The notes below the pieces were generated by a model, which saw nothing but the letters and a program-made list of their open reading frames with translations, did no database searches and was not told where the DNA came from. Below, in pieces: positions 24,912-37,465 of a DNA stretch of 38,259 bases. The stretch spans positions 1 through 38,259 of the forward strand of contig JAUWMR010000038.1 in NCBI GenBank assembly GCA_030613055.1. The letters are read 5' to 3'. Position numbers and translations under genes: made by a program. The DNA comes from Desulfobacteraceae bacterium (lineage in GTDB: Bacteria; Desulfobacterota; DSM-4660; Desulfatiglandales; Desulfatiglandaceae). Numbering within the stretch: position 1 is the stretch's first letter; each line of letters begins with the position of its first letter.

Positions 24912-27900
24912 CTAATTCGCTATTTTCAAGTCTATCTTGAGGTCAGAGTGCATCTTTTGCATCGTGTTCTCCACGACGTTTTTATATGCCTCTAATCTGG
25001 TCATTACACCGGCCACGCCGCTGTGCTCGTCCAATTCAAGAATCAGGTATGCCTTATCTCCCATGATATGCCTGTAGAAATGTTCGATAAACGAGTCAGC
25101 GCCACAGCTAAAATTTGTCAAATGAAGGCCGAAATAGTTAGGAAAATCCATAATAAATTTCGCGGTCCTTAATATCTGGGCACCAAGCCCCCAGTACATG
25201 GACGGGAAATCTGAAAGATCCACTCGAGATACATCAACAAAATCCATTGGCAGGGCGGTTACTCCTATCTTGGCCATATTCCGGCCTAATCTCAAATTCA
25301 ACCTTTCATCATACAGGTTATAGGGCCGGCCAGTAACAATCACAACAGGGACCGCAGGGTTTTGTTCTTTAAGGATTTCCCTTCCCCGTTTATACATCTC
25401 CTTCTCAAAACGATTCTGCCTGTCAAGGGCAAAATAAATGGCCTTTGTTATCTCAGCCCTTGTTACGCCAAGCTTGGTTTGTATTTGTTCTGATATCTCC
25501 AGGGCAATGGTATCGGGATCATACTTTAAATGCACTACAGGGCTCAAAATTGAAGCCTGATCTATGTCAAGGGCCATACGGACCATATATGTATTGCCCT
25601 GGACCATTGGACAATAAAATCCGGCTTCAGAAGACTCAGGCGTGGGCATTGTGATTATGCTGGGAAGGAACAGATATTTTGTCTTTCCAATCAACTCTTT
25701 AACATGGCCGTGGGATACCTTCACGGGATAGCATGTCTCCGCCGTCATTGCCTCTATCCCGACCTTTGAGATACGAGTATTGGTAGGCGGCGTCAGTACA
25801 AGCCGGAACCCGAGCTGATCAAAAAAATGGGCCCACAGGATATCGGTTTGGTAGCCGTAAAGTGCCCTTTGCATACCAACAGTAGGACGATTGTCCACTG
25901 CCATAAGGGGTTCGCCCCTAATCTCTTCATATACTCCGGCTATATGTTTGTGCCAGATTTTTTGCCTCAATTCAAAGTAATTCTCTTTTTTTGAACCCCT
26001 TGTTTTAGCCAGCTCATAACGTCCGCACTCCCCTCCCCAGGTGCTGCGCCTTCCGTCAAAATCATAGATCTTGAGTTTACACTGGTTGTGACAGTTGGGA
26101 TCCGCATGACAGACCTTTTCCGTATATTTCATCGTGTCATTAACAGCACTGTCAAAACCCCTGAATGTGCTTTTGCTCAGGTTTTCCAGGCGCATTTTCT
26201 CCCTAACGCTTATGGCAGCTCCATATGCCCCCAATACTTCTCTGTGACGTGGGACTATAAGTCCACGTCCAAGGACATTCTCAAAGGCGGAAACGACTCC
26301 TTTGTTCAAAGAAGGCCCTCCCAAAAACATGACCCTTTGGCCTATCTTGCGTTTTTCCACTACCCTGTTTAGATAATTATGAACAATGGCATAACACAAC
26401 CCTGCTATTAGATCCTTTTGATTTACGCCTTTTTGGTGGTAAGATACAAGATCCGATTCCATAAATACGGTGCATCTTTCTGCCAATTTGACCGGCGATT
26501 TTGACGAAAGCGCAATCTCCTCGAACTCACCCACAATACCGATCCCGTATTTATTGGCTAATTCATGAAGAAAACTCCCTGTGCCCGCAGCGCAGACCTT
26601 GTTCATATCAAAATCAAGAGGATAAGTATTGGCAATATAGATGTATTTGGAGTCCTGCCCCCCTATCTCAAAAATGGTGTCAACTTCCGGATCTATGTCA
26701 ACAGCCCCTCTCGCGTGAGCCGTTATCTCATCAATAATCAGATCAACATTCAAAAAGTCACCCACAACATTTCTGCCCGAACCGGTAGTAGCAGTGCCTG
26801 CCAGCTCAATATTGTTTCCCACATCATCTCTGATAGTCTTCAAAAGCCCCTGGGTGACCTCAATTGGTTTACCCTGGGTCATTACATAGCACTTATGAAT
26901 AATCTCGCCTTTTTCATTGATAAGTGCGTATTTCGTGGTCGTGGATCCAATATCGATACCTAAGTATGCCCGGGCCTTTTTTGACCATGATCTTTTCTCA
27001 AGTTCATTCGTCACCGGAAAGACCGTCTGTTTCAATTCCAGCCTCGGCGCAATGGGAACCGGCACATCACTGTCTAACCCATTTATGTTAAGCGTCTTCA
27101 GGTCTAAACGGTCTTCCCTCTTCAATTCAAGAGACTGCAATGCCACGCCTAATGCACCTATGGACGTATTATAAGGGGGCACTATCAAACCCGGGAAATA
27201 ATTCTTAAAGGCATTCACCTGGAGTTCGTTTAGTGAAAGCCCGCCGATAAAAACAACGGGTTCTTCCATAACACGGCTGCAAACAATGGTGCTTATATAA
27301 TTTCTGGCGTTTCCAATATGAAGACCGTGAATAATGTCCTCTAACCTTTCTCCCTTGTTCTGCAGGTGAATCATGTCGGACTTTGTAAACACGGTGCAAC
27401 GGCATGCCACATTTGCGGGCTTCCGGCTCCTTAAACCAAGTTTGATAAAATCGGCCAATATCCCGTCAATATGCTTTTGAGACGCGTCCGTCTCTCTGGT
27501 ATACAGGGCGGTGGCCAGTCTCTGGGCCTGCTGCTCAATAAAAGACCCGGTGCCGGATGCGCACGGGCCATTGGTGTTGAAGTATTCCAGGTCCCAACCG
27601 CCATCATAATGATTGATTTGTAACAAGGCGGTGTCCTGCCCCCCCATGCTGATGATGGATTTGACATCGGGCTTGATAAAAACAGCTCCTAAGACCTGGC
27701 TAATGGTCTCGAATTCGTAAAATGTCCCTAATTGCTCGCTGAGTTTTTTCCCGTGATTTCCTGTAAAGGAAACAGACTTGATCGTCTCTTCCCCGAATTT
27801 GTTGTACAGATCCTCAAGAAGGGTAAAAAGCCTCTCTTCTACTTTTCCCATATGACGATCATAGGGAGATTCATAGACAATCTCCCTTTTATCATTGATG

Positions 27901-27992
27901 ACAATACAATTCAGGCTTACCGATCCAGCATCAATACCAATATAGTACCTGTCAGGTCCCCGGAGATGTTTTTGTTCTTTTTTGTTAACCAT
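24912..27992 (-). CDS. Large acyl-CoA dehydratase activase-like protein (tandem BadF/BadG/BcrA/BcrD ATPase)
   Basis: 1026 residues. It contains two ASKHA ATPase modules in tandem, each like HgdC, which uses ATP to push electrons into 2-hydroxyacyl-CoA dehydratases and benzoyl-CoA reductase. Module 1 (~15-290): YYIGIDAGSVSLNCIV, SMGGQDTALLQ, CASGTGSF and CRCTVFTKSDMI. Module 2 (~335-600): YLGIDIGSTTTKYALI, EIGGQDSKYIYI, CAAGTGSF and RCTVFMESDLVS. Each module keeps the two Cys that hold the dimer-bridging [4Fe-4S] cluster. The remaining ~400 residues start a DUF2229/HgdB-like domain (TCYPVKVSHGHVKELIG; FYCPMVQGNTYMVR) completed by the next gene. The specific partner enzyme is not in the window. 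Confidence 0.9.
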   Translation of the reverse strand: MVNKKEQKHLRGPDRYYIGIDAGSVSLNCIVINDKREIVYESPYDRHMGKVEERLFTLLEDLYNKFGEETIKSVSFTGNHGKKLSEQLGTFYEFETISQVLGAVFIKPDVKSIISMGGQDTALLQINHYDGGWDLEYFNTNGPCASGTGSFIEQQAQRLATALYTRETDASQKHIDGILADFIKLGLRSRKPANVACRCTVFTKSDMIHLQNKGERLEDIIHGLHIGNARNYISTIVCSRVMEEPVVFIGGLSLNELQVNAFKNYFPGLIVPPYNTSIGALGVALQSLELKREDRLDLKTLNINGLDSDVPVPIAPRLELKQTVFPVTNELEKRSWSKKARAYLGIDIGSTTTKYALINEKGEIIHKCYVMTQGKPIEVTQGLLKTIRDDVGNNIELAGTATTGSGRNVVGDFLNVDLIIDEITAHARGAVDIDPEVDTIFEIGGQDSKYIYIANTYPLDFDMNKVCAAGTGSFLHELANKYGIGIVGEFEEIALSSKSPVKLAERCTVFMESDLVSYHQKGVNQKDLIAGLCYAIVHNYLNRVVEKRKIGQRVMFLGGPSLNKGVVSAFENVLGRGLIVPRHREVLGAYGAAISVREKMRLENLSKSTFRGFDSAVNDTMKYTEKVCHADPNCHNQCKLKIYDFDGRRSTWGGECGRYELAKTRGSKKENYFELRQKIWHKHIAGVYEEIRGEPLMAVDNRPTVGMQRALYGYQTDILWAHFFDQLGFRLVLTPPTNTRISKVGIEAMTAETCYPVKVSHGHVKELIGKTKYLFLPSIITMPTPESSEAGFYCPMVQGNTYMVRMALDIDQASILSPVVHLKYDPDTIALEISEQIQTKLGVTRAEITKAIYFALDRQNRFEKEMYKRGREILKEQNPAVPVVIVTGRPYNLYDERLNLRLGRNMAKIGVTALPMDFVDVSRVDLSDFPSMYWGLGAQILRTAKFIMDFPNYFGLHLTNFSCGADSFIEHFYRHIMGDKAYLILELDEHSGVAGVMTRLEAYKNVVENTMQKMHSDLKIDLKIAN

Positions 27993-32723: not shown

Positions 32724-33230
32724 TTATACTGCCGCCTGCAGGACCGCGGCCTCTTTTCCCGCGATGGATATTCTCTCCGCCGCGTTTTTCTGCTTTAAAA
32801 TGCTGACATCGTTGGCATCAATATATTCTATTGCGTTTACCTCACAGAATCGGACACATTGAGGGTCGCCATCACAGAGGTCGCATTTGAACACCTTCTT
32901 GTCTATGGTGTTAAAACTCATAGCGCCGAAGGGACATACGGCTACACACGAGCGGCAACCGATACACACATCATAGTCAACTACTACCCGGCCAAGCTCC
33001 TCATCACGGGAGATGGCCTTAACCGGGCATACATTCATACACGGGGCGTCCTGACATTGCTGACAAGACATCGGGATATAAAGGCCCTCCGACTCCCATT
33101 TCATCACCTTTATCCTGCTCCGGGTAGGGTTAGAAATGCCATCGTGCATTACCGCACAGACGAGTTCACACAGCCGACATCCCGTGCATTTCTCGTAATT
33201 TATTACCAGAACTTTACCCATTGGTTCCAT
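32724..33230 (-). CDS. Four-cluster ferredoxin subunit of the aldehyde oxidoreductase (AorA/HycB-like)
   Basis: 168 residues with 16 Cys in four binding motifs: CTGCRLCELVC, CQQCQDAPCMNVC, CIGCRSCVAVC and CDLCDGDPQCVRFC. This predicts four [4Fe-4S] clusters, as in the DmsB/HycB type electron-transfer subunits and in AorA of the multi-subunit aldehyde oxidoreductase of Aromatoleum. Each motif is CX2CX2-5CX3C. It lies directly downstream of the tungsten-enzyme gene, with AAAGGAG 7 nt before the start. It should take electrons from the oxidoreductase to an outside partner. A FAD-binding AorC-like third subunit is not in the window. The C-terminal ~20 residues are free of Cys. Confidence 0.92.
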   Translation of the reverse strand: MEPMGKVLVINYEKCTGCRLCELVCAVMHDGISNPTRSRIKVMKWESEGLYIPMSCQQCQDAPCMNVCPVKAISRDEELGRVVVDYDVCIGCRSCVAVCPFGAMSFNTIDKKVFKCDLCDGDPQCVRFCEVNAIEYIDANDVSILKQKNAAERISIAGKEAAVLQAAV

Positions 33231-33251: not shown

Positions 33252-35192
33252 TCACAATAAGTGGGAAGGCTCTTTATTCAGGCCGAGTTTTTTTAATCTC
33301 TCCGGTGTGGGGACACCGTTTTTATCGAGACCCTTGTGCTCGTAGAATTCATCAATCATCTTAATGAACTTTTCCTTATCAATCTTTTTACCGACGACAT
33401 CTATGGCTCCCCGTCTGCAGGGCTCATCAAAATAGCGATGGTTCAACATATCGCCTTTCTTGAGATCGTCTCTTGTCAGCCCTTCTCTCAGGTTGAAGAG
33501 TCTTTCAATCATATTACACCTTACGGCTACGTCCCAGATTTCCTCAGGGGTCATTTCCAGACCGGTATTGTAATAAATTACTTTTGACCAATCCTCGAAA
33601 TTAGGAAGTGTCGCGCCTAAGAAAGTTGTATGGTATTTGCAGATCCCGAGGCAATCTACCCCCATGTAACAGTTCTCCTGCCAGAAGACCTGCCAGGGTT
33701 TACCGATATATTCCGTATGCTCAGAGCTTAACGGCCCATCGTAGGGAACAGGGTTGCTGTATATCTTTCTCAGAACCGGCTCCGGCAAGTGATAAAGGTC
33801 GATTGCAGGGCGGCTCCTCAGATGATCGGAACCCCTGGAACCAGTGGCAATATTAAGTGCCAATCCGGGCGTAGCCCTCTCATCCGAGTGGAGATTGCTC
33901 ATCCCTTTGACCTGGATAAGATAATCAAAGGAATTCTTACCTATCTTTTCCGAGGCTGGAATACCTCCTTCTGCCAGTGTGTCTCCTAACCAGCCCTTTC
34001 GGAAAGCGATACGGTCGATCATTTCTATAACGGCCTCGTCATTTCCAAATCTCAGATCCAATCCATCAGTTTCTTTGCTGGTGATGATACCCAGTTCATA
34101 AAGCTCCATGGCCCAGGAGATGAGGCTCCCTGTCTCGAGATTATCCATGCCGTATTTGTCGACCAGGTGATTACCGGTAAGTACTGTGATTGCCCTGGGT
34201 GTATCCGTTTCCCCGCCAAATGCACCCTGGGAGGTGTATTCCGGTCCTTCATCATATACGCCCGCATAGGGGCCTTCCGGTATCTTATATTGTGCCCTGC
34301 AATGAACCTGGCATCCGAAACAGCCGGTCATATGGTAGGGCCCCATGGTCTCCTCGCAGATTTCATCGATACGTTCGGGTTCGATGTCATCCGCATACTC
34401 ACACTGGTTATATTGAAAATTCCTGCACCTGATGCCTCCCCAGGAATTGGTAGCTCCCCAGATAAAAGGTGTCCCCAGGGCTCCCTGGGTCTGATTTACC
34501 TTGGCGCTTACTATTTGATCTATGAAACGCTTATTGTATTCCAGGGCTTCTTTTGGCCGGGCAATCTTTATATCCATGGTTCCGCGGACCGACACGGCCT
34601 TAAGATTCTTGGAGCCCAAAACGCATCCCATCCCCGATCTGCCGCCGGAATTTTTAATGCCTGTCATCACATTGGCAAACCTGACCAGATTCTCGCCGGC
34701 AGGACCACAAACGAGGCTTTTGACCTCCTGATCACCCAGGTCTTCCCTGAGTGCCCACTGTGAGTCTGTTACGGATTTGCCCCAAATGTCGCGGGCGTCC
34801 CGAATCTCGATTTCACCGTTGTGGATGTAGATATAGACAGGGTGTTTAGCCTTGCCTTTAATGACAAGGTGATGAAAGCCTGCCCAGGCCATTTCAGGTG
34901 CGAAAAAACCTCCCATGTTCGCGCTTCCTAACAAACCGGTCAGGGGTGATTTGGCCATGACATGAGTCCTGGCGGTTGCTGAAGCACATGTCGCTGTCAA
35001 GATACCCCCGCTTACCATAAGGGTATTATTAGGACCTATGGGGTCACACCCTTTTTTTGTATGGTTATAAAGCAGATATGCATCCAGCCCCCTGCCGCCT
35101 AAAAATTTCTTCCTTACATCAAGCGGGATAGGTTTTGTCTGGATATCACCTGTGGTGAGATCAATATATGCTATCTTTCTGTCTAACGGCAT
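33252..35192 (-). CDS. Aldehyde:ferredoxin oxidoreductase (tungsten-bispterin enzyme)
   Basis: 646 residues, the normal AOR length. Oxidises aldehydes to carboxylic acids (or reduces acids) at a tungsten-bispterin centre. The N-terminus has KKFLGGRGLDAYLLYN. The pterin-binding segments include ARTHVMAKSPLTGLLGSANMGG (~74-95) and GGRSGMGCVLGSKNLKAV (~183-200). The [4Fe-4S] ligands are C291, C294 and C298 in CFGCQVHC, with C518 of DCLGIC closing the set. The SDERATPGLALNIATGSRGSDHLRS block (~436-460) matches the family. It starts 1 nt after the zinc-ribbon gene stops and is followed by the ferredoxin gene. Substrate not deducible; acetaldehyde is plausible from the EutA-like neighbour, aromatic aldehydes from the AorA-like partner. 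Confidence 0.95.
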   Translation of the reverse strand: MPLDRKIAYIDLTTGDIQTKPIPLDVRKKFLGGRGLDAYLLYNHTKKGCDPIGPNNTLMVSGGILTATCASATARTHVMAKSPLTGLLGSANMGGFFAPEMAWAGFHHLVIKGKAKHPVYIYIHNGEIEIRDARDIWGKSVTDSQWALREDLGDQEVKSLVCGPAGENLVRFANVMTGIKNSGGRSGMGCVLGSKNLKAVSVRGTMDIKIARPKEALEYNKRFIDQIVSAKVNQTQGALGTPFIWGATNSWGGIRCRNFQYNQCEYADDIEPERIDEICEETMGPYHMTGCFGCQVHCRAQYKIPEGPYAGVYDEGPEYTSQGAFGGETDTPRAITVLTGNHLVDKYGMDNLETGSLISWAMELYELGIITSKETDGLDLRFGNDEAVIEMIDRIAFRKGWLGDTLAEGGIPASEKIGKNSFDYLIQVKGMSNLHSDERATPGLALNIATGSRGSDHLRSRPAIDLYHLPEPVLRKIYSNPVPYDGPLSSEHTEYIGKPWQVFWQENCYMGVDCLGICKYHTTFLGATLPNFEDWSKVIYYNTGLEMTPEEIWDVAVRCNMIERLFNLREGLTRDDLKKGDMLNHRYFDEPCRRGAIDVVGKKIDKEKFIKMIDEFYEHKGLDKNGVPTPERLKKLGLNKEPSHLL

Positions 35193-35193
35193 A

Positions 35194-35454
35194 TTATGTT
35201 ACCCCCAGTTCTTTTAATTTTGCTTCTGCCAATTTTCTGTTTACATCCCATACCGGTCCCCTGATACGGGGCAGTTTGGGATTAACCCAGTGGACCCGGT
35301 ATTCCATTCCGCATGTCGGGCATTTAGCGGTCTTTTTTCCCTTCTCCGGCTGAATCCTTTCCATGCACGTAGGATTGTGGCACCTAAACTTACCATAGGT
35401 CCTGGTTTTTCGCAGACTTTCAGCCGTTGACAGCCCTTCCTTTTCTATTGTCAT
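35194..35454 (-). CDS. Small zinc-ribbon protein of the AOR operon
   Basis: 86 residues. A central ribbon carries CHNPTC (CX4C) and CPTC (CX2C), typical of a rubredoxin/rubrerythrin-like knuckle or zinc ribbon, flanked by charged segments. The C-terminal KLPRIRGPVWDVNRKLAEAKLKELGVT looks helical. I know no named function. AAAGGAGAG lies 6-9 nt before the start. It is the first gene of the operon, and the AOR start comes 1 nt after its stop. Being first and tightly coupled, it could be a small electron carrier or a maturation/assembly factor for the tungsten enzyme. Zinc versus iron binding cannot be told from sequence. Confidence 0.8.
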   Translation of the reverse strand: MTIEKEGLSTAESLRKTRTYGKFRCHNPTCMERIQPEKGKKTAKCPTCGMEYRVHWVNPKLPRIRGPVWDVNRKLAEAKLKELGVT

Positions 35455-35618: not shown

Positions 35619-35634
35619 GTTCATTATCGTGAAC
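35619..35634. promoter_or_regulatory. Palindromic operator, AOR side
   Basis: GTTCATTATCGTGAAC: half-sites GTTCA/TGAAC with a 6-bp spacer (18 bp if the flanking A/T pair is counted). It lies about +8 to +24 of the predicted minus-strand transcript (start near 35642), a repressor position. An almost identical copy is at 35839-35854. Confidence 0.6.
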
Positions 35635-35648
35635 TCATAAGGAAAAAA

Positions 35649-35676
35649 ATTCTACCATAGTTATCTTTTTTGTCAA
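35649..35676 (-). promoter_or_regulatory. Predicted sigma70 promoter for the AOR operon
   Basis: On the minus strand TTGACA (35676-35671), 16-bp spacer and TAGAAT (35654-35649). Transcription would begin near 35642, giving a leader of about 190 nt before the zinc-ribbon gene. An operator-like palindrome follows at once. Confidence 0.6.
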
Positions 35677-35800
35677 GGGAAAATATATTTTTTGTGTAAT
35701 ATTTCCGAAAAGATGTTATGTCATTATTGATATAAAGCGATATTTATACGTGCTTGTCTTCTTTATATATGTCATATCTAAATATAACTTAAAATGTATG

Positions 35801-35828
35801 TTGACAAACAATGTCACAAGATTATAAA
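35801..35828 (+). promoter_or_regulatory. Predicted sigma70 promoter for the EutA-like gene
   Basis: TTGACA (35801-35806), 16-bp spacer and TATAAA (35823-35828). Start expected near 35835, just before the second palindrome, giving a leader of about 200 nt. Confidence 0.6.
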
Positions 35829-35838
35829 GTATAAAAAG

Positions 35839-35854
35839 GTTCATTATGGTGAAC
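35839..35854. promoter_or_regulatory. Palindromic operator, EutA side
   Basis: GTTCATTATGGTGAAC, differing from the AOR-side copy at one base. Position about +5 to +20 of the predicted plus-strand transcript. The two operator centres are 220 bp apart (about 21 helical turns). Confidence 0.6.
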
Positions 35855-35864
35855 ATACAGTAAA

Positions 35865-36006
35865 ATGGATTGGGAAGCGTTGGGAAAATAGGCTATGCTG
35901 TTGATGATAGGGATTGAAATTGTTAGAGGCTGAAGGCCTTTATCAAGGTAACCAAAAAAGCGGCAGAGGCCATCAGGCGTGGGATTAAAGAACAACCCGT
36001 AAATTG
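35865..36006 (+). other. Leader of the EutA-like gene with broken short coding traces
   Basis: An ATG at 35865 opens an 8-codon frame (MDWEALGK, then TAG). In another frame, just after a TAG, a 25-codon stretch reads LKAFIKVTKKAAEAIRRGIKEQPVN before TGA at 36004-36006. Together they look like remnants of a small decayed gene, or chance. I recognise no family. Confidence 0.25.
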
Positions 36007-36034
36007 AGTTGAGAATAGAGTTCGAGAAATAATA

Positions 36035-37465
36035 ATGGAAATAAACGAAATTGAAATACTTTCAGTTGGTGTAGATGTAGGAACTTCAACCAGTCATTTA
36101 GTTTTTTCAAATCTGGTACTAATAAGAGATGAGCGGTCTGAATCTCGTCGTTTTCAGATTCAGGAAAGAAATATAATTTATGAGGGAAGAATAATAAATA
36201 CACCTTTATTGGATAATGATACAATTGATATCGATAAATTAACTGATTTTTTGAAAGATGAATATAAACAAGCAGGAATTGATCCAGCAGATATTCAAAC
36301 AGGTGCAGTTGTTGTAACAGGAGAAATAGCCAAGAAACATAATGCAAGGCAAATAGTTGAAGCCCTTTCCAATGATGCAGGAAAATTTGTCGCGGCAACA
36401 GCAGGACCAAATTTCGAAAGCTTAATCGCTGCAATGGGTTCAGGTGCAACAAATAGATCAAAAGATTACAATAAAACAATATTATCTTGTGACATTGGTG
36501 GGGGAACCTCTAACATTGCCATATCAAAAAATGGAGAGATTATATCTACAAGTTGTATATCTGTAGGGGCTATTTTGTTTGGCGTAAATTCTGAAGGAAA
36601 AATTTGGAGGATTGACGAACCTGCAATGAAAGTTATGGAACATATTGGATTGAATTATAAAATTGGGGATCAAATCCCAAAGAAGGATATAGAAAGAATA
36701 GCAACAAAGTTTGCCGAAGTATTAATTGAGGTAATCACCGGTCCTGCAAGATCCTCTTTAGCAAAGCAGTTAATGGTGACTAATGATCTGGATTTTACAG
36801 AAAGAATTGATGAATACTTATTTTCGGGGGGTGTAGCTGAGTTGATATATGGGCGTAATGGCAATTACGACGATATAGGGCAAATCCTGGCCGATAAAAT
36901 AAATTCTCTGACATTTAAGCTGGCTTCTCCGGTAATAGAGCCGGTGAATAAAATTAGAGCAACCGTCATTGGTGCAGGTGCCTATTCGCTGTCAATTTCA
37001 GGTTCTTCCGGGTTTATGGATGACAAACTTTCATTTCCGATAAAAAATGTTCCCGTAATCAAGGTAGATGTCGAAAGGTCAAAATTAAGCGTTGAACACG
37101 TTGTATCACAGATAAATATCTCATTTCAAAGATTTGATATAAACGAAGGTGAAGAAATTGTAGCATTATACTTCAAGGACCCGGTTAGGGCTTCTTACTC
37201 CAAATTAGAATTATTTGCAAAATCTATTGAAGCTGCTCTTACCAATTCAATAGAAAATAAAATACCAATTATTTTAATCTTTGAAAAAGATATCGCATGC
37301 AGTGTGGGAAACGTAATCCGCAGGGAAACTGGTTTGAAAACTAATCTTCTGTCATTAGATGAATTAATTCTGGAAGAAGGGGATTGGATTGATATCGGTG
37401 AACCGTTAGTTGCTGGTCAAGTATTTCCAGTTACCGTAAAATCCCTTGTTTTCAATAGGAATTAA
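36035..37465 (+). CDS. EutA-like ASKHA ATPase (ethanolamine ammonia-lyase reactivase family)
   Basis: 476 residues matching EutA (PF06277) end to end. EutA exchanges inactivated cobamide out of ethanolamine ammonia-lyase using ATP. Seen: LSVGVDVGTSTSHLVFSNL (phosphate-1, ~9-27), GAVVVTGEIAKKHNARQIVEALS (~90-112), FVAATAGPNFESLIAAMGSGA (~118-138), CDIGGGTSNIAI (phosphate-2, ~151-162), FSGGVAEL (~269-276) and ATVIGAGAYSLSISGS (~309-324). No eutBC, microcompartment or transporter gene is near, so it is an orphan. It reads more AT-rich than its neighbours, which may indicate transfer. No clear ribosome site precedes ATG 36035. Divergent from the AOR operon and sharing its operator. Confidence 0.88.
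   Translation: MEINEIEILSVGVDVGTSTSHLVFSNLVLIRDERSESRRFQIQERNIIYEGRIINTPLLDNDTIDIDKLTDFLKDEYKQAGIDPADIQTGAVVVTGEIAKKHNARQIVEALSNDAGKFVAATAGPNFESLIAAMGSGATNRSKDYNKTILSCDIGGGTSNIAISKNGEIISTSCISVGAILFGVNSEGKIWRIDEPAMKVMEHIGLNYKIGDQIPKKDIERIATKFAEVLIEVITGPARSSLAKQLMVTNDLDFTERIDEYLFSGGVAELIYGRNGNYDDIGQILADKINSLTFKLASPVIEPVNKIRATVIGAGAYSLSISGSSGFMDDKLSFPIKNVPVIKVDVERSKLSVEHVVSQINISFQRFDINEGEEIVALYFKDPVRASYSKLELFAKSIEAALTNSIENKIPIILIFEKDIACSVGNVIRRETGLKTNLLSLDELILEEGDWIDIGEPLVAGQVFPVTVKSLVFNRN

Follow-up and report, generated by a model that had tools for sequence, protein, structure and literature searches.

A predicted IclR regulon linking a putative tungsten aldehyde oxidoreductase operon to a EutA-like gene in uncultured Desulfobacterota

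Results

Genes of the locus

The window analyzed here is a 38,259-nucleotide stretch of DNA from a sulfate-reducer-like Desulfobacteraceae bacterium and corresponds to contig C97 of a 4.26-Mb genome assembled in 97 contigs. Three minus-strand genes make up an operon headed by p86 (35194–35454), which encodes an 86-residue protein with two CxxxC/CxxC-type cysteine pairs and no Pfam hit. It is followed by the large subunit of an aldehyde:ferredoxin oxidoreductase family enzyme (AOR; 646 residues; 33252–35192) and, as the third gene, by a polyferredoxin-like small subunit of the Fer4 type (FeS subunit; 168 residues; 32724–33230). On the plus strand, eutA (36035–37465) codes for a 476-residue EutA-like ATPase with an ASKHA fold that spans the full length of PF06277 (positions 2–475 of 475, E = 1e-140). 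The Pfam matches, AFOR_N and AFOR_C for AOR and PF06277 for the EutA-like protein, confirm the family assignments of an earlier sequence-only reading of this DNA. AOR combines the AFOR N and C domains with an FeS small subunit, as is typical of the class II tungsten AOR family (WOR), and is predicted to be a tungsten enzyme oxidizing aldehydes, in a family that also includes non-aldehyde enzymes. The arrangement of a large and a polyferredoxin-like small subunit in one operon is shared with the class II tungsten oxidoreductases WorL and WorS (PMC13328260), but p86, the EutA-like partner and the IclR operators described below are additional here. Elsewhere in the window, positions 24912–27992 encode a further ASKHA ATPase, a 1026-residue BcrAD_BadFG/DUF2229 activase-type protein.

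Paired operators on divergent promoters

Two palindromes without strand assignment occupy the region between p86 and eutA: O1 (GTTCATTATCGTGAAC; 35619–35634), facing the p86-AOR-FeS operon, and O2 (GTTCATTATGGTGAAC; 35839–35854), facing eutA. Their centres are 220 bp apart, as earlier stated. Each had been claimed to lie just 3' of an outward-facing TTGACA-16-TAnAAn element, and we located both predicted sigma-70-type promoters by consensus match. The promoter of the AOR operon occupies 35649–35676 on the minus strand (TTGACA 35676–35671, 16-bp spacer, TAGAAT 35654–35649), and that of eutA, ancestrally of iclR-eutA, 35801–35828 on the plus strand (TTGACA 35801–35806, 16-bp spacer, TATAAA 35823–35828). 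Counted from the first base of TTGACA, O1 begins after 42 bp and O2 after 38 bp, in each case 3' of the –10 box. The same geometry recurs among 104 outward operators taken from paired sites, 81 of which have an exact TTGACA upstream (median 42 bp; 1.2 expected in shuffles).

The sequence-only reading had the coordinates right, and its claim that the palindromes are confined to this spot held up: O1 and O2 are the only instances of GTTCA-N6-TGAAC in the window even with one mismatch allowed, a rarity that is weak at one mismatch (shuffle mean 1.34). At the genome scale, scanned by IUPAC pattern matching, there are just seven exact GTTCA-N6-TGAAC sites, so that finding O1 and O2 a mere 220 bp apart is most unlikely to be a chance outcome. 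The fuller pattern GTTCAYHATDRTGAAC is also rare in the genome; with up to one mismatch it is found in five places, namely O1, O2, two positions on contig C95 (25196 and 25365) that flank an iclR gene, and one in a gltD-like ORF. The reversed control pattern gave no match in the genome at this threshold, and with two mismatches the counts are 35 for the pattern versus 15 for the control. The near-match inside the gltD-like gene, on contig C34, was taken as chance, as was a GTTCA-N6-TGAAC on contig C88 positioned 139 bp before an AOR paralogue, which lies within an ORF and has a non-matching centre. A search of a plasmid collection with the intergenic region returned no match.

Decay of the local iclR

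In five relatives (G060, G012, G048, G039 and G019) the gene order is FeS-AOR-p86, operators, iclR, eutA, with m337 additionally inserted at the locus in G012 and G019 and the G039 locus ending at a contig edge; the sequence of O2 abuts the iclR start in G060, G012, G019 and G039. The window DNA from O2 to eutA aligns with iclR in order, as an operator and start region, a 37-bp block and a 110-bp block. We assign positions 35877–36007 (plus strand) to an iclR relic, which retains the codons for KIGYAVDD (35877–35913; 37 bp, 89% to G060, E = 2e-9) and a C-terminus ending in KAFIKVTKKAAEAIRRGIKEQPVN and a stop codon (about 35931–36007), the rest being deleted. The 110-bp block, which encodes the terminal FIKVTKKAAEAIRRGIKEQPVN, the stop codon and the eutA leader, is 83% identical to G060 (E = 8e-30). 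Because of this relic, the eutA operator O2 would be the old autoregulatory operator of iclR. G050 has the same layout as the window with an independent and different iclR scar and perfect operators, and no IclR homologue was found in this genome (80% complete); operators can thus outlast a detectable regulator.

An intact IclR on contig C95

The two C95 sites lie between an IclR-family gene, whose start codon is abutted by one of them, and m337, which codes for a 337-residue protein that carries a 4Fe-4S domain and resembles the membrane anchors TmcC and HmcE in sequence family. The iclR product contains HTH_IclR (PF09339, 1e-10) and IclR_C (PF01614, 6e-39) domains. The regulator gene had been said to be missing from the window, which is correct insofar as the intact homologue is on C95, but a decayed copy is present in the window. 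The sequence-only reading had proposed to look for further sites at eutBC, pduCDE or a nearby IclR/GntR/TetR gene. Two sites do flank an IclR gene, but the organism's own genome encodes neither EutB nor the diol dehydratase large subunit.

Orthologues of C95 IclR (>50% identity) occur in about half of 60 relatives. C95 IclR is 67–71% identical to the local-type IclR proteins and branches outside them, the latter being 80–92% identical among sister lineages; the recognition helix is near-identical between the two. Since the local regulator has decayed and C95 IclR carries this helix, it is the best candidate to act in trans on both operator sets. The assembly is fragmented, with an estimated contamination of 4%, and C95 could in principle stem from another organism, but its composition (GC 0.449 on C95 and 0.437 in the window; tetranucleotide r 0.95) and the match of m337 to G019 (87%) argue otherwise.

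We considered whether O1 and O2 are themselves relics, unbound since the local iclR was lost, with AOR and eutA expressed constitutively or under another regulator. Such a reading would fit the decayed gene in the window and the perfect operators of G050; it appears unlikely given that both palindromes are intact though most of iclR is gone, and that C95 supplies an intact IclR with a near-identical recognition helix and matching operators.

Conservation and class of the operators

Across related Desulfobacterota metagenome-assembled genomes, we scored genes with a site at most 350 bp upstream and at most two mismatches. The palindromes are conserved in relatives: upstream sites were found for 39/44 non-redundant iclR orthologues (0.1 expected after shuffling), 33/45 p86 genes, where they correspond to O1, and 12/18 m337 genes, compared with 2/42 for the FeS-subunit gene, a negative control inside the operon; the operator-bearing loci are related by descent, and these counts are not independent events. 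For eutA the figure is only 4/35 when sites immediately upstream are counted, as the gene mostly follows AOR or iclR. Most conserved paired sites face the p86-AOR-FeS operon, m337 or the iclR gene, and operators are retained next to IclR proteins as diverged as 52% identity. The earlier claim that paired sites of one regulator connect the AOR operon with the EutA-like gene gains support in that the sites are conserved, rare and tied to iclR, with eutA often in the AOR operon or behind iclR.

Single-contig genomes G058 (C1:1242300–1245212) and G052 (C1:1023730–1026638) contain a 63%-identical AOR adjoining a distant IclR (38%), hinting at an older AOR–IclR pairing.

The base counts of the 104 operators fit the group-1 IclR consensus GKTYCRYW3-4RYGRAMC (PMC8222616), and an IclR-type regulator is supported. 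The closest parallel is NpdR of Rhodococcus opacus, an HTH_IclR plus IclR_C regulator with a near-identical 16-bp palindrome, GTTCMRYATMRTGAWS (PMC8222616); unlike in NpdR and other group-1 systems, the predicted targets here are a putative tungsten AOR, the EutA-like protein and the TmcC-like membrane protein with its Fe-S domain. IclR systems commonly have tandem sites 18–22 bp apart, whereas here two sites occur on divergent promoters, mostly separated by 150–185 bp.

This spacing bears on the suggestion that a single IclR tetramer joins O1 to O2 in a DNA loop, the 220 bp being tuned to 21 helical turns. The distance does give 220/10.5 = 20.95 turns, and tetrameric binding is known for IclR proteins (PMC8222616), but the distances in 57 operator pairs extend from 62 to 309 bp, most of them at 150–185 bp with a mode near 164–171 bp, and lack helical phasing. 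In a Rayleigh test at 10.5 bp (P of about 0.07, relatedness ignored), the mean phase misses a whole turn by about 4 bp, close to half a turn and the opposite of the prediction. Furthermore, G050 has the same layout at 238 bp (22.7 turns), and with a promoter of its own at each operator a loop is not needed. We regard looping as very improbable, and the near-integral spacing in the window is probably a coincidence.

Some IclR-family proteins, such as PcaU, PobR and MhpR, are activators, which raises the question of whether IclR activates the AOR and eutA promoters. The sites begin 38–42 bp past the TTGACA start, on the transcribed side of the –10 box, and reach up to the iclR start codon; this position would block rather than recruit RNA polymerase, and makes an activating role improbable.

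The EutA-like protein and its possible client

Of 61 genomes compared, the organism's own and 60 relatives, 22 have a member of the EutA-like clade (full-length PF06277), and 21 of these also encode an AOR 79–100% identical to that of the window, compared with 10 of the 39 genomes without EutA-like protein (Fisher P = 8e-8, phylogeny not corrected). The AOR in these 10 genomes implies that EutA is not strictly needed for AOR. The eutA gene is usually directly 3' of AOR and the FeS subunit (order AOR-FeS-eutA in G036, G025, G004, G020, G005, G026, G053, G051 and others) or adjoins iclR.

The sequence-only reading took the protein for a cobamide-enzyme reactivase, a role that has become doubtful. 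EutB (PF06751) was absent from all 61 genomes, with the E. coli positive control detected, and the diol dehydratase large subunit was found in one of the 61. In a broader sampling of the phylum, 30 of 345 genomes do encode EutB, and the EutA proteins that share a contig with EutB (G217 and G387) are about 26–33% identical to the window clade. Thus, the protein resembles EutA, the ethanolamine ammonia-lyase reactivase, in its full-length PF06277 domain and ASKHA fold, but differs in its linkage to AOR, in the lack of EutB in its own genome and 60 relatives, and in falling below the NCBIfam EutA equivalog cut-offs (best 406 bits versus 598). Its predicted structure (mean pLDDT 81) has an ASKHA fold, and a fold search with the model returned PPX/GppA, FtsA, MreB and CoA-dehydratase activators, which reflects the general fold and indicates no client.

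Two roles would fit the EutA-like protein: it may be an accessory factor of AOR, or it may reactivate an unrecognized partner enzyme that works alongside AOR. More specifically, we tentatively entertain the possibility that it is a dedicated ATP-driven partner of the predicted tungsten AOR (a reactivase, maturase or cofactor-exchange factor), and that a EutA-family member here serves a cobamide-free enzyme.

EutA-like proteins 52–60% identical to that of the window are encoded in Asgard archaea, in Thorarchaeota (L192:5548–9434, L193, L195 and L203), commonly in tandem pairs extended at the N-terminus, and in Heimdallarchaeota (L191), with no AOR of the window type nearby. More distant EutA-like genes lie beside cupin genes with no EutB nearby (L225:294–6625 and L224:6275–10129), L225 additionally having a class II aldolase and a UbiD decarboxylase. 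At L205 (G304), a EutA-like gene of the window clade is located beside a truncated AOR (residues 1–109 match), and EutB is encoded elsewhere in the genome.

Discussion

We propose, with considerable confidence, that one IclR controls both the AOR operon and eutA through O1 and O2, and that its regulon comprises AOR (p86, large and FeS subunits), the EutA-like protein, m337 and iclR itself. O1 and O2 would be IclR binding sites of the group-1 motif located immediately beyond the –10 elements of the two divergent promoters, of which the minus-strand promoter would drive p86, AOR and the FeS subunit, and the other eutA. In the ancestor, the second promoter presumably drove an autoregulated iclR-eutA unit; with the local iclR now reduced to a 130-bp relic, promoter and operator would drive eutA directly, and the regulator would most likely be the intact C95 IclR with its own operator pair between iclR and m337. 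Repression and autoregulation are suggested by operators that follow the –10 box and lie right next to the start codon of iclR. IclR would most likely repress by covering the start region, and may dissociate from the DNA once it has bound a small ligand, which is probably the substrate of AOR or else a carboxylate related to it; that the inducer is the product or substrate of AOR is a reasonable guess.

The co-regulated membrane Fe-S protein suggests that electrons from AOR may go to the membrane. Given the presence of m337 in the predicted regulon, and of HdrA/HdrC-like and MetF/MetV genes near AOR in some relatives, AOR electrons may enter membrane or bifurcating electron-transfer systems. 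At L099 (9770–13394), genes for an HdrA-like flavoprotein and an HdrC-like protein separate iclR from the AOR operon and are located downstream of the operators; this position suggests that the regulon of this lineage includes them. Genes for an Fe-S protein and a MetV-like (DUF5981) protein, or for MetF and a MetV-like protein, are found upstream of eutA at L155 and L187, and upstream of p86 at L103 and L104.

The main text of a survey of tungsten oxidoreductases (PMC13328260) contains no mention of eut, ethanolamine or a regulator, and the open-access literature searched held no paper on EutA together with aldehyde ferredoxin oxidoreductase. For IclR together with this enzyme family, a single match emerged, concerning aromatics in Geobacter (PMC1924859). 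The regulator and its operator class are already known, and the predicted regulon is undescribed in that literature. In uncultured Desulfobacterota that lack EutB, the regulon would connect an AOR predicted to contain tungsten with an ATPase of the EutA family and with an Fe-S protein for electron transfer at the membrane. The window captures a regulator gene in the process of being lost, its operators persisting and a diverged homologue elsewhere probably taking over. The automatic annotation "EutA" is misleading in these bacteria, and the locus offers a concrete lead on the function of the EutA family outside ethanolamine metabolism. We know of no ASKHA-type helper yet assigned to an AOR-family aldehyde oxidoreductase; if the EutA-like protein is indeed a partner of AOR, it would be the first.
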